Source: Planctomycetota bacterium
Lineage (GTDB): Bacteria; Planctomycetota; Phycisphaerae; Phycisphaerales; SM1A02
Assembly (NCBI GenBank): GCA_016873255.1
Contig: VGXR01000013.1
Coordinates: 1 to 56,631, forward strand
DNA length: 56,631 nt
Direction: 5' to 3'
The notes beneath the pieces were generated by a model, which was not told the DNA's origin, did no database searches, and was given only the letters and a program-made list of their open reading frames with translations. The stretch's first letter is position 1. The number at the start of each line of letters is the position of its first letter. Positions 22,105-51,312 of this stretch are shown here, in pieces. The position numbers and the translations under genes are program-made.

Positions 22105-23277
<1,173 letters not shown>

Positions 23278-23280
23278 AAC

Positions 23281-23353
23281 GGTGTCCGGGGAAGCCCCGC
23301 ACCTGTCTATGCGGAATGGCCGGACAAAGGGGTGCGGGGCTACCCCGGACACC
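23281..23353. terminator. Family A inverted repeat, likely bidirectional terminator
   Basis: Two 23-bp arms (23281-23303 and 23331-23353) are reverse complements with one mismatch, around a 27-nt loop. The core is TCCGGGGTAGCCCCGCAC, and each arm can itself form a small CGGGG/CCCCG hairpin. It fills the gap between two convergent genes, 3 nt after one stop codon and 2 nt before the other. A shorter copy lies at 19975-20007. Confidence 0.75.
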
Positions 23354-23355
23354 AC

Positions 23356-24033
23356 TTACCGAATCGTCAGCAGCTTCATCCCGTCCTTCGTCTGCTCGAA
23401 CTCCACGACGCGCAGGTTGAACTGCTCCCAGAGGTGCGGGGCGAGCGTGGCGCGCATGACGCCGGGGCGCACCTCCTTCATGGCCACGTCCGAGCCCACG
23501 GCGTTGAACCGCATGCGGTTGAGGAGCTCCATGGTCGGCTTGCGGTTCGTGCGGCACCACTGCTCGAACGCCTGGAAGCCGCCCGTGCGCTCGTAGGCAT
23601 CGCGCGACTCAGGCGCGAGCAGCTGGTCCCACATCAGCCGGTACTCCTCGTTGCGGAAGCAGGCCATCGCATTGGCCACCACGTCCGCCGGCATGAGGTT
23701 GCGCAGGATCACCGTGCCGTCGTCGAGTTCCTCGCGCGGCTGGAAGACCTTCCTCGGGACCGGCTTGCCGTCGGGCCCGAGCACGGGGGCGGCCGCCTCG
23801 GCGGACGGCTTCGGCTGCCCGAGCGGCTCGTCCACGAACACCACGCGCGTGCCGTCCGCGAGCGTCACCTCCTTGGGCGCGCTCGGGTCGGTCATGAACG
23901 ACGGGCGGTAGCGGTACTCGACGCGCTCCTCGGCACAGCCGAAGGGCACGAGCAGGCACGCCACGACCGCGCCGCGCACGGCGCGCACACACGCCGGCCC
24001 CGCTCCCGTCCGCGCCCGCACGGTCCCCGTCAC
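23356..24033 (-). CDS. Small lipoprotein of unknown function
   Basis: The 225-residue product has an arginine-rich N-terminus, a hydrophobic run (AVVACLLVPFGC) and a lipobox Cys at about residue 33, so it should be lipid-anchored. The mature part (YRYRPSFMTDPSAPKEVTLADGTRVVFVDEP and the helical ADVVANAMACFRNEEYRLMWDQLL) matches no family I know. The GTG start at 24033 overlaps the nadB stop in a GTGA junction, which implies translational coupling. This is the last gene of a three-gene minus-strand operon. Confidence 0.75.
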   Translation of the reverse strand: MTGTVRARTGAGPACVRAVRGAVVACLLVPFGCAEERVEYRYRPSFMTDPSAPKEVTLADGTRVVFVDEPLGQPKPSAEAAAPVLGPDGKPVPRKVFQPREELDDGTVILRNLMPADVVANAMACFRNEEYRLMWDQLLAPESRDAYERTGGFQAFEQWCRTNRKPTMELLNRMRFNAVGSDVAMKEVRPGVMRATLAPHLWEQFNLRVVEFEQTKDGMKLLTIR

Positions 24034-46618: not shown

Positions 46619-47776
<1,158 letters not shown>

Positions 47777-47829
47777 TCCCACGTCCCCTTTCCCGTCCGT
47801 TCGAAACACGCGAGGCCCACGGCCCCGGG

Positions 47830-48486
47830 TCACTTGCCCGCGTCGGCCTCCGGACCGTCGTCGTCGCCGAGCTCGATGCCGAGCTTCTGGGCGAGGAACG
47901 CGCGTCCGAAACGCCAGTCGCGGTTCACCGTCGGGCGCGACACGCCGAGCGCCTCTGTGATCTCCGCCACGGTCATTCCCGCGAACACCTTGCACTCAAG
48001 CACGCGCGCGGCGCGCTCGTCCATCTCCGTGAGTTCCTTGAGGGCCTCGTCGATGGCCACCACGTCGGCGGGGTCCACCTGCGAGGCAGGCACGAACGCG
48101 AGCGCCGCGTCGCCCCCGCGCCGCGAGGCTCCGCGCTTGACGGCACCGCGCGAACGCGCATGGTCCACCAGAACGCAGCGCATGGCATGCGCGCTGACGG
48201 CGAGCAGGTTGCTCGCCGACGCGAACTCGTCGGGGCGCCGGTGCGCCAGGCGCAGGAAGGCCTCGCTCACGATCGCGGTCGGCTGCAGCGTGTGGCTGGC
48301 GCGCTCCTGGCGCATCAGCACCGATGCCATCGACCGCAACTGCGGGTAGATCTCCCCGAAACCGTCGGCAATCGTCCGCAGCCGCGGTGCCATGCGGCCT
48401 CCGGCCGCGGCACCACCGCATTGGTCGCCCTGCTCAAAGGGGTCAACATCAACGACCTTTTCCTCTGCCTGAACCGAACTGCTCAC
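47830..48486 (-). CDS. ECF-type RNA polymerase sigma factor (TIGR02999-like)
   Basis: The 218-residue protein has sigma region 2 (YPQLRSMASVLMRQERASHTLQPTAIVSEAFLRLA...MRCVLVDHARSRGAVKRG). Region 4 follows (DEALKELTEMDERAARVLECKVFAGMTVAEITEALGVSRPTVNRDWRFGRAFLAQKLG). The HTLQPTAIVSEA and VNRDWRFGRAFL phrases are typical of the planctomycete/acidobacterial ECF-like group. The GTG start at 48486 follows GGAGG at good spacing. No anti-sigma factor adjoins; the kinase gene does. The promoter upstream has a dyad between -35 and -10. Confidence 0.9.
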   Translation of the reverse strand: MSSSVQAEEKVVDVDPFEQGDQCGGAAAGGRMAPRLRTIADGFGEIYPQLRSMASVLMRQERASHTLQPTAIVSEAFLRLAHRRPDEFASASNLLAVSAHAMRCVLVDHARSRGAVKRGASRRGGDAALAFVPASQVDPADVVAIDEALKELTEMDERAARVLECKVFAGMTVAEITEALGVSRPTVNRDWRFGRAFLAQKLGIELGDDDGPEADAGK

Positions 48487-49085: not shown

Positions 49086-49610
49086 ATGATGCAATCGCTG
49101 TGGGCACCGTGGCGGATGGCCTACATCCGCGGCCTGGAGTCGCAGGCCGAGGCGGCGCGCGCGGCCCCGGCGGGCGGATCCCCCAACTTCCTGGCCGAGT
49201 ACTGGGCGCATCCCGAGCGGGACCGCGAGCAGCACGTCGTCTTCCGAGACGACCGGGGAATGATCCTCCTCAACCGCTACCCCTACACCAATGGCCACCT
49301 GCTGGTGGCGCTCGGCGAGGCACAGCCGACGATCGACCGATACCCGCCGCCGCAGCGGGCCCACTTCTGGCTCCTGATGGAGCGCGCCATGGACCTGTGC
49401 CAGCGGACGTTCGAGCCCCAGGGGATGAACGTCGGCGTCAACCTCGGGCGCGCTGGAGGGGCGGGCCTGCCCGAGCACCTGCACGGCCACGTGGTGCCAC
49501 GTTGGGCCGGCGACACCAACTTCATGAGCGTCCTGGGCGGCGTTCGCATGATCCCGGACAGCCTCGAGCGTGCCTACGAGGCGTATCGCGCCACCGCCGG
49601 GCGCGGCTAG
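49086..49610 (+). CDS. HIT-family nucleotide hydrolase/transferase
   Basis: The 174-residue protein belongs to the histidine-triad family. It starts with the group's typical LWAPWRMAYI, has RYPYTNGHLLVAL, GMNVGVNLGRAGGAGLPEHLHGHVVPRW (triad HLHGHVV at 131-137) and the C-terminal WAGDTNFMSVLGG. These phrases match the Ap4A-phosphorylase-like/HIT branch that acts on dinucleoside polyphosphates or nucleoside phosphoramidates. The start at 49086 is chosen because of the TACACT box 6 nt upstream and the family N-terminus. An in-frame ATG at 48990 with a good ribosome site would add 32 residues. Confidence 0.92.
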   Translation: MMQSLWAPWRMAYIRGLESQAEAARAAPAGGSPNFLAEYWAHPERDREQHVVFRDDRGMILLNRYPYTNGHLLVALGEAQPTIDRYPPPQRAHFWLLMERAMDLCQRTFEPQGMNVGVNLGRAGGAGLPEHLHGHVVPRWAGDTNFMSVLGGVRMIPDSLERAYEAYRATAGRG

Positions 49611-49845
49611 ACTTGGATCGATCGACGGGGTCCGACCCCCTCGGGTGCACGGCTCGGGGCCTATTTGCTCGAACCGATGCGAACCCCAAGGGATCGCCCC
49701 TTAATTGCTGCGACGATGGCCATGCCTCCTCTGAGTGGAAGGCCGGGATCGACGGCAGGCGAGCCCACCTACGCTTGGGGTTCGAGCTTCGCCCCGGTCG
49801 GCCCCCGACGGGGTCGGGCCCCGTCGATCCCCCACCGCCCCCTCG
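49611..49845. other. HIT-MFS intergenic region
   Basis: This 235-nt gap is almost entirely filled by the inverted-repeat element at 49620-49829. A TAGACT hexamer (49608-49613) overlaps the HIT stop codon and would start transcription at the first base of the element. Nothing else is seen. Confidence 0.6.
49620..49829 (+). repeat. Roughly 210-bp element closed by 20-bp inverted repeats (family C)
   Basis: GATCGACGGGGTCCGACCCC (49620-49639) and GGGGTCGGGCCCCGTCGATC (49810-49829) are complementary at 19 of 20 positions; in RNA the odd pair is G-U. Inside, GAACCCCAAG (49681-49690) pairs perfectly with CTTGGGGTTC (49774-49783), and GATCGACGG recurs near 49748. The right arm ends 16 nt before the MFS start codon. 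It could be a small mobile element (MITE-like) or a structured RNA in the MFS leader. Confidence 0.6.
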
Positions 49846-51312
49846 ATGAAGCACGTCGCACACCCCCGCACGCTGGTTGACCTGCTGACCGGCTGGCTGT
49901 GGAGCTTCCACCCGCGGGCGATCCCGACGATGCAGCGCGCCAACTACGCGCGCGAGCTGGTCTCGTGGGCCTTCCTGCCGATCATGCTCGGCGCGATCGA
50001 GGGCGGCACGATGTCGGTCATCGTGAAGAAGGCCTGGGCCGGCGTGCCCGGCGTCTCGCCCGCGGCACTCGACTTCGCGGTGGCGCTCGTGAGCGCGGCA
50101 CCGAACTTCGCCAACCTCACCAGCTTCCTCTGGAGCCGCGTCAGCAACGGGCGCGACAAGGTGGCGTTCATCTCGCGCATCCAGCTGGCCACGTGCGCGT
50201 GCGTGGCGCTGGTGGCGGCCATGCCGGTGAGCGAGTGGGGGCTGCTGGGCACGTGCGTGCTGGTGCTGCTGGCGCGCAGCACCTGGACGGGCGTCATCAC
50301 GGTGCGCGCGGCAATCTGGCGCCAGAACTACCCGAAGAACGGGCGTGCGAGCATCGCCGGCAAGATGGCCACCGTGCAGTCCATCATGCTGGCACTCGCC
50401 GGATGGGTGGTGGGCGCGAGCATGGACCTGAACCCGGCGAGCTTCCACGTGGTGTTCCCCGTGCTCGCGGCGGTCGGCGTCTACGGCAACTCCATCTTCC
50501 GCCACGTGCGCCTGCGCGGCGGCAGGCGCCTCGCCGAGCGCGAGCGCGCCGAGGCCGGCACCGCGGAGGTGTCGGCGAACCCTGTCCGCACCGCGGCCGT
50601 GGCGGGCGACGCGCTGCGCACCAACTGGCGCGTGCTGGTCGAGGACCGCCCCTACCGGACGTTCATGGCGTGGATGTTCGTGTTCGGGCTCGGCAACCTG
50701 ATGATCGGCGCGCCGCAGGCCATCTTCCTCGAGGACCGTCTGGGCGCCACCTACCTGCAGGCCATCCTGGCCACGACGATCATCCCGCTCCTCACCATGC
50801 CGCTCGTGATCCCGGTGTGGGCGCGGCTCCTCGACCGGCTGCACATCGTCAAGTTCCGGTCGATCCACGGCTGGAGCTTCGTGACCGCCGCGGGCGTGAT
50901 GTGGCTGGCGGCATGGTCGGAGTCGCTGTGGCTCTTCTACGTGTCTGGCGCCCTGCTCGGGGTCGGCTTCGCAGGCGGCAGCATCGCGTGGAACATCGGC
51001 CACCAGGACTTCGCCAGCGCGGAACGCGATGCGCTCTACATGAGCGTCCACGTGACGCTGAACGGCATCCGCGGGGTGATCGCGCCCTTCCTGGCGGTGG
51101 CGCTCTACAAGTGGCTGGACGCGACGGGAGTGTCGCACCTCACGTTCGCCGTCTGCTTCGCCGTCAACGTGGTGGGCGTGCTCGGGTTCGCCTCGCAGTG
51201 GCGCACCATGCGCACGACGCTGGCCGGCTTCGACCGCGCCGCGACGAAGGCGTCCATCGACGAGGACGAGCCGCTGACGCGGATCCGGGCGTCGATCGAC
51301 CGCGGCGACTGA
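49846..51312 (+). CDS. Major facilitator superfamily transporter
   Basis: The 488-residue product has about 12 hydrophobic segments in two halves joined by a charged loop (RLRGGRRLAERERAEAGTAEV). Examples are LVSWAFLPIMLGAIEGG, LATCACVALVAAMPV and FMAWMFVFGLGNLMIGAPQ. Further ones are TIIPLLTMPLVIPVWARLLDRL (MFS cytoplasmic-loop-like) and VSGALLGVGFAGGSIAWNIGHQDFA. The substrate is not predictable. The C-terminus is acidic and soluble. The ATG at 49846 lies 16 nt after the family C element. Confidence 0.87.
   Translation: MKHVAHPRTLVDLLTGWLWSFHPRAIPTMQRANYARELVSWAFLPIMLGAIEGGTMSVIVKKAWAGVPGVSPAALDFAVALVSAAPNFANLTSFLWSRVSNGRDKVAFISRIQLATCACVALVAAMPVSEWGLLGTCVLVLLARSTWTGVITVRAAIWRQNYPKNGRASIAGKMATVQSIMLALAGWVVGASMDLNPASFHVVFPVLAAVGVYGNSIFRHVRLRGGRRLAERERAEAGTAEVSANPVRTAAVAGDALRTNWRVLVEDRPYRTFMAWMFVFGLGNLMIGAPQAIFLEDRLGATYLQAILATTIIPLLTMPLVIPVWARLLDRLHIVKFRSIHGWSFVTAAGVMWLAAWSESLWLFYVSGALLGVGFAGGSIAWNIGHQDFASAERDALYMSVHVTLNGIRGVIAPFLAVALYKWLDATGVSHLTFAVCFAVNVVGVLGFASQWRTMRTTLAGFDRAATKASIDEDEPLTRIRASIDRGD

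Follow-up and report, generated by a model that had tools for sequence, protein, structure and literature searches.

The window, by which we mean the whole analysed stretch of 56,631 nucleotides, carries a gene for a HIT-domain protein and, downstream on the same strand, a gene for an MFS transporter. The gap between the two is occupied by a single long hairpin on the + strand (49620-49829), whose closing-stem arms (49620-49639 and 49810-49829) form a 20-bp duplex that includes a single G-U; the ATG of the MFS gene (49846) lies 16 nt past the end of the stem. An earlier note on this DNA had described the gap-filling hairpin with its single G-U, a TAGACT at 49608 and the 16-nt distance to the MFS start, and each of these was recovered where it had been placed. 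The region 49600-49860 reaches an MFE of -146.6 kcal/mol, compared with -115.75 +/- 5.09 kcal/mol for 200 shuffles (z -6.06, none of the 200 as low). The AT-rich internal stretches mentioned in the same note were overstated, as the element has a G+C content of 69% vs 71% for the window and contains a few short AT stretches. The features of the locus are as follows.

49086-49610, + strand: HIT-domain protein gene (Pfam PF01230), conserved neighbour of the RNA gene
49608-49613, + strand: -10-like box (TAGACT) sharing its TAG with the HIT stop codon (position; recurrence in relatives)
49620-49829, + strand: predicted 6S RNA (SsrS) gene, ~210 nt (RF00013 match at 49634-49816; 127.3 bits with our model R1, whose training included the element)
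49620-49660, + strand: closing stem P1, 5' arm (MFE fold; inverted repeat)
49659-49678, - strand: predicted product RNA (pRNA), reading AUCGGUUCGAGCAAAUAGGC with start AUCGGUUCGAGC, placed from the E. coli pRNA start
49667-49675, + strand: helix P2, 5' strand GCTCGAACC, partner 49779-49787 (94.8% of cells paired in the alignment)
49676-49689, + strand: central bubble, 5' side, putative open-promoter mimic (MFE fold, RF00013 alignment)
49681-49690, + strand: inner stem or collapse helix, 5' strand (folds, covariation, homologue fold test)
49690-49766, + strand: apical stem-loop arm (alignment helices 2-6; helix 4 with both-side changes in 8 of 8 pairs)
49764-49778, + strand: CCCACCT and 3' side of the central bubble (fits the RF00013 consensus; invariant alignment columns)
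49774-49783, + strand: inner stem or collapse helix, 3' strand (folds, covariation, homologue fold test)
49779-49787, + strand: helix P2, 3' strand GGTTCGAGC (covariation alignment)
49791-49829, + strand: closing stem P1, 3' arm (MFE fold; inverted repeat)
49846-51312, + strand: MFS transporter gene (Pfam PF07690, MFS_1), frequent neighbour of the RNA gene

Elsewhere in the window, 20-bp arms that start no more than 300 nt apart and have no more than one irregularity occur only at 23281-23353. This second long hairpin has one mismatch and lies just past the ORF 22105-23277, presumably a thiolase-like gene. A search of its genome with 23260-23375 gave 12 matches, counting itself, spread over 7 contigs, so this hairpin looks like a repeated palindromic element of the REP or MITE type. 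The - strand upstream of HIT carries two adjacent genes (46622-48486), one for an ECF-type sigma factor (Sigma70_ECF) and one for a protein kinase.

6S RNA, found widely among bacteria, resembles a promoter in its open state and sequesters RNA polymerase. The hairpin matches the 6S family RF00013 at 49634-49816 with 38.1 bits (E 5.1e-6) over model positions 1-187 of 187, and this full-length alignment contains the closing stem, the central bubble, the apical arm and landmarks such as CCCACCU. No other Rfam family matches 49300-50200 at E <= 1 or 49550-49900 at E <= 10. The score falls below the RF00013 gathering score of 46.4 bits, and consequently a standard Rfam scan of the window reports nothing; this cut-off is a curator's library threshold and not a property of the RNA, and membership was rested on other grounds. 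Similar scores are displayed by the window's family, where RF00013 gives 33.7 to 42.1 bits in the 8 of 20 scanned loci that it matches at E <= 0.1, the cut-off being reached in none of the 20.

An independent comparison is offered by R1, a covariance model of the core (125 positions) built from 33 sequences of planctomycete relatives only. R1 locates E. coli K-12 ssrS, which was outside its training, at 510-639 within the annotated 484-666 (24.9 bits, E 5.6e-4). It was also run on 15 RF00013 loci of the phylum's other lineages, likewise kept out of training: R1 and RF00013 agree on the place in 13 at E <= 1, and 8 of these are at E <= 0.01; three further matches elsewhere (E 0.34-0.81) look like chance. 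We take the matches to E. coli ssrS and to the RF00013 loci of the phylum as homology to 6S RNA. In addition, E. coli ssrS has the window's CCGAT word at the equivalent position.

Among 101 genomes of relatives, homologues were found by plain DNA search in 59 and by R1 in 83 (the window's own genome included in both counts), R1 giving one place per genome. Under stricter filters, RF00013 detects 23 of these genomes, 7 of them over the cut-off at the homologous place and belonging to the window's order, and misses the window's own copy; all 23 places coincide with R1 places as compared by eye, 12 of them having been used to train R1. In 292 genomes from across the phylum, R1 matches in 26, and RF00013, again under the stricter filters and again missing the window's copy, matches at E <= 0.001 in 127, with 71 over the cut-off. 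The four R1 matches outside the order (G147, G221, G273, G299) are RF00013 places over the cut-off. Eighteen of the 101 genomes are without an R1 match, four of them near-complete and from one genus. These four (G061, G066, G070 and G074; family f2, genus g46; 98-100% complete) match neither R1 nor RF00013, which may reflect loss of the 6S RNA or divergence past both models under the stricter filters. Variation in length is seen as well, as the core measures 141 to 167 nt in G028, G029, G038 and G057 compared with 125 model positions, and the aligned loci L015, L016, L018, L021 and L028 have extra sequence in the apical loop.

Covariation was assessed on an alignment of 33 rows (32 distinct), consisting of 30 DNA-search loci (L001, L004-L032), less the near copy L009 and the contig-end locus L011, and five of the 23 RF00013 loci (L033-L055). 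As RNAalifold on the full alignment A1 blended P2 with the pairs of the collapse helix, we counted each helix on its own in alignment A2. For the open-bubble structure, 94.1% of cells are paired vs 85.5% in shuffles, doubly changed cells amount to 69 vs 15.4, and both-side changes occur in 17 of 34 pairs vs 9.4, with none of 500 shuffles as high on these measures. When the partners are slid by one column, pairing falls to 42-43%. Most of the covariation resides in the apical arm; P2 is little variable, with three of its nine pairs never varying and two changed on both sides. The compensatory changes that we had looked for as a mark of 6S RNA are present. The check proposed with the earlier note, homologues in related genomes with covarying stems, was borne out by the 83 R1-positive genomes and the covarying helices.

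The overall anatomy shared with E. coli ssrS and RF00013 comprises the rod, the closing stem, the central bubble, a P2-like helix and the apical arm, in a single gene of ~180-210 nt with CCGAT at the expected pRNA start. The window differs from RF00013 in its sub-threshold score and its near-perfect 20-bp outer stem, and from E. coli in its neighbours, HIT and MFS genes in place of zapA and fau. Such a shape can also be adopted by a separate RNA class. Ms1 RNA of Actinobacteria is 6S-like in shape, and its partner is the core RNA polymerase, free of the primary sigma factor, according to the excerpted text of PMC9130861, demonstrating that the shape need not mean holoenzyme binding. A separate class with a different polymerase partner, for example the core enzyme, would fit the sub-threshold RF00013 score. 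However, RF00013 does score above its cut-off at the homologous place in other members of the order, E. coli ssrS is within reach of R1, and the bubble words and CCGAT are common to E. coli or the RF00013 consensus, which makes a separate class very improbable. From Ms1 itself the window's RNA is set apart by its direct RF00013 match with no other Rfam family reported, a distinction drawn from the Rfam scan. Judged from its sequence, the element is a diverged 6S RNA, homologous to the known 6S RNAs and a new member of their family; the earlier note had thought of an undescribed RNA, a label that no longer holds.

Initiation of the RNA is expected near 49620. The -10-like TAGACT lies at the end of the HIT gene, its TAG being the HIT stop codon. 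In 34 of 62 homologous loci, a TANNNT starts 9-18 nt before the predicted stem, compared with 5.3 +/- 2.1 (maximum 13) in 500 shuffles. The distribution peaks at -12 with 14 loci, the position of TAGACT relative to 49620. This count is rough, as the MFE fold over-extended some stems (the window row L001 was thus scored as a miss) and the control is a single-base shuffle; L059 was omitted, and dropping duplicate cores and rows near an end left 62 of 80 rows. In nine loci of the window's genus, the RNA is preceded by GGGCTAGACT in six, by CGGCTAGACT in the window and by GGGCTAGAAT in one, while L005 lacks the box sequence and has TACACT. No -35 box was matched upstream of TAGACT, the hexamer 17 bp upstream being ATCGCG. 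The covariation and the enrichment of a -10-like hexamer ~12 nt before the stem favor the idea in the earlier note that the RNA is structured and has a promoter-like box to itself, for which no -35 was found. No terminator was found at the 3' end of the element; the only terminator-like site (49639-49659) lies inside the 5' arm and was taken as chance.

The gene order around the RNA offers a further level of detail. The RNA is found within 1.4 kb downstream of HIT in 48 of 80 HIT loci, and in 43 of the 48 its core starts 30 to 179 bp past the HIT match; the 32 loci without it include 7 with fewer than 300 bases downstream, where absence says little. Relative to HIT, the RNA is on the plus strand in 14 of the 48 loci and on the minus strand in 34. 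On a HIT tree of 78 loci and the window (with L056 and L123 skipped), which is a protein tree and not a genome tree and in which long branches were flagged, the orientations need two changes, both on well-supported branches; shuffled orientation labels need 12 on average, and none of 500 shuffles needs as few as two. A neighbour test covered 10 proteins at 10 of 15 loci drawn from the 48, with MFS identity judged by Pfam family only. An MFS-family gene lies on the HIT strand beyond the RNA in 8 of the 10; of the remaining two, L101 has an S1-domain gene and L075 a protein with no Pfam match. The RNA is on the plus strand in three of the MFS-bearing loci (L057, L085, L115) and opposite to MFS in five (L071, L086, L116, L129, L126). 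At L116 and L126, a further ORF of ~150 aa lies between the RNA and the MFS gene. The RNA gene seems to have been reversed in place, its neighbours keeping their order and strand, and our guess is that the hairpin arms served as inversion repeats.

These orientations bear on the proposal, made in the earlier note, that the hairpin controls the MFS gene. A riboswitch-like cis-acting 5' leader would be in keeping with the 16-nt distance between the stem and the MFS ATG in the window, and with the presence of an MFS gene at 8 of 10 loci. However, a leader must lie upstream on the same strand, and in five of the eight MFS-bearing relatives it does not; moreover, the family that it matches acts in trans. 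As the RNA gene seems to have been reversed next to MFS genes that stay on the HIT strand, it does not generally serve as a leader of MFS. We rejected the cis regulator on orientation and regard it as highly unlikely, and in the window's genus read-through into MFS may occur. A MITE or REP-type mobile hairpin inserted between the two genes, also suggested in the earlier note and hinted at by the long near-perfect inverted repeat filling the gap and by the variable orientation beside HIT among relatives, was rejected as having a negligible chance of being correct, since the element matches only itself and its two arms in its own genome (a single copy where scattered near-identical copies had been sought), each of the 83 positive genomes has one R1 match, the position beside HIT is conserved and the helices covary.

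Having assigned the element to 6S RNA, we turn to its central bubble. The inner perfect 10-bp stem of the earlier note (GAACCCCAAG at 49681-49690 with CTTGGGGTTC at 49774-49783) does exist, but its 3' strand largely overlaps that of the 9-bp helix P2 (49667-49675/49779-49787), so that the two compete, and P2 is the one preferred by the fold of the free RNA (-132.7 vs -129.0 kcal/mol). In that fold, the 5' bubble side is unpaired between P2 and the apical arm save for a 3-bp GCG/CGC contact, and the CCC of the conserved CCCACCT pairs within the apical arm. Extrapolating from where the E. coli pRNA begins, we took the pRNA to start at about 49678 and blocked segments ending there as a pRNA would. 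With at least 8 nt blocked, the MFE fold shifts to the inner stem, with 9 of its 10 pairs formed, and from 10 nt on P2 is gone.

The same alternative is present among the relatives. Folded freely, 26 of the 33 homologues are predicted to form P2; in the remaining seven, the collapse helix is already there in four (L021, L026, L027, L033) and neither helix in three. Upon blocking of the P2 5' strand, 28 of the 33 form at least 6 collapse pairs, compared with 3.35 expected with shuffled bubbles, and five do not switch. In the alignment, the collapse helix has 13 doubly changed cells vs 3.3 (none of 500 shuffles as high) and a score of 0.222 vs 0.141 in shuffles, again with none as high. The number of pairs with double changes (3 vs 2.0) is not exceptional, being reached in 147 of 500 shuffles. 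Its covariation is located at the distal end, and its last pair is formed in 59% of cells. At L013, L021 and L026, two P2 pairs are broken and the inner stem has 9, 9 and 10 of 10 pairs, respectively; at L032, also with two broken P2 pairs, it has 7 of 10.

A comparable rearrangement is known from other 6S RNAs. The excerpted text of PMC8876501 describes, for B. subtilis 6S-1 RNA, a collapse helix between the P2 3' strand and the distal 5' bubble, and, for E. coli-type 6S RNAs, a hairpin forming in the 3' bubble. The latter hairpin is absent from the MFE folds of the window's RNA, where the alternative pairing is the collapse helix. The pairing of the central bubble collapse helix of 6S-1 and of Aquifex aeolicus is possible and conserved in the window's RNA. 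The two helices differ in strength, as that of the window has 10 perfect pairs, six of them G-C, compared with the weak A:U and tandem G:U pairs of 6S-1 described in the same excerpts, and its function in the window's RNA would be the one suggested by this likeness.

Combining these observations, we propose the following course of events. Transcription probably starts from a promoter of the gene's own at the HIT stop codon, and the RNA of ~210 nt is computed to form a rod made up of a long closing stem, central bubble and apical arm. As expected for a member of the 6S family, the bubble would mimic an open promoter and capture RNA polymerase with the primary sigma factor, and this capture would damp transcription when nutrients run low. 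On return of NTPs, the 5' bubble strand would template a short pRNA from ~49678 towards 49659, the synthesis of which would open helix P2. The freed P2 3' strand could then re-pair with the distal 5' bubble into the collapse helix, with 10 pairs possible, and by analogy to B. subtilis 6S-1 RNA this helix would close the bubble and eject the polymerase. The computations show that the alternative helix exists, is conserved and is predicted to form, whereas the release of polymerase is extrapolated from 6S-1 RNA. As a whole, a 6S RNA gene, with a bubble that would capture RNA polymerase and a collapse helix that would release it, is the best explanation of the element and one that we hold to be very probably correct.

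A bolder possibility combines gene order and switch. The 6S gene might turn over in place via its hairpin arms, with the reversed gene remaining in use and its promoter box carried along or regained, in the same lineage in which the collapse switch extends up to ten perfect pairs. We put this forward tentatively, as an idea that is rather doubtful at present.

6S RNA has been reported absent from Pirellula staleyi and Rhodopirellula baltica (Wehner et al. 2014, as cited in the excerpted text of PMC5673643) and was not found in Thermogutta terrifontis (same excerpts). Expanded 6S RNAs are mentioned in PMC2864571, as the content of a supplement. Within the available portions of these two articles, no 6S RNA of the window's order is described, and it may have been published earlier elsewhere. 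These reports of absence in planctomycetes stand against the 83 of 101 genomes positive by R1 and the 127 of 292 genomes of the phylum positive by RF00013. Since the cut-off hides the RNA in all 20 scanned loci of the window's family, such genomes likely carry a 6S RNA that is left unannotated. With its conserved collapse helix, this group of RNAs makes it possible to test by comparison how RNA polymerase is released from 6S RNA.
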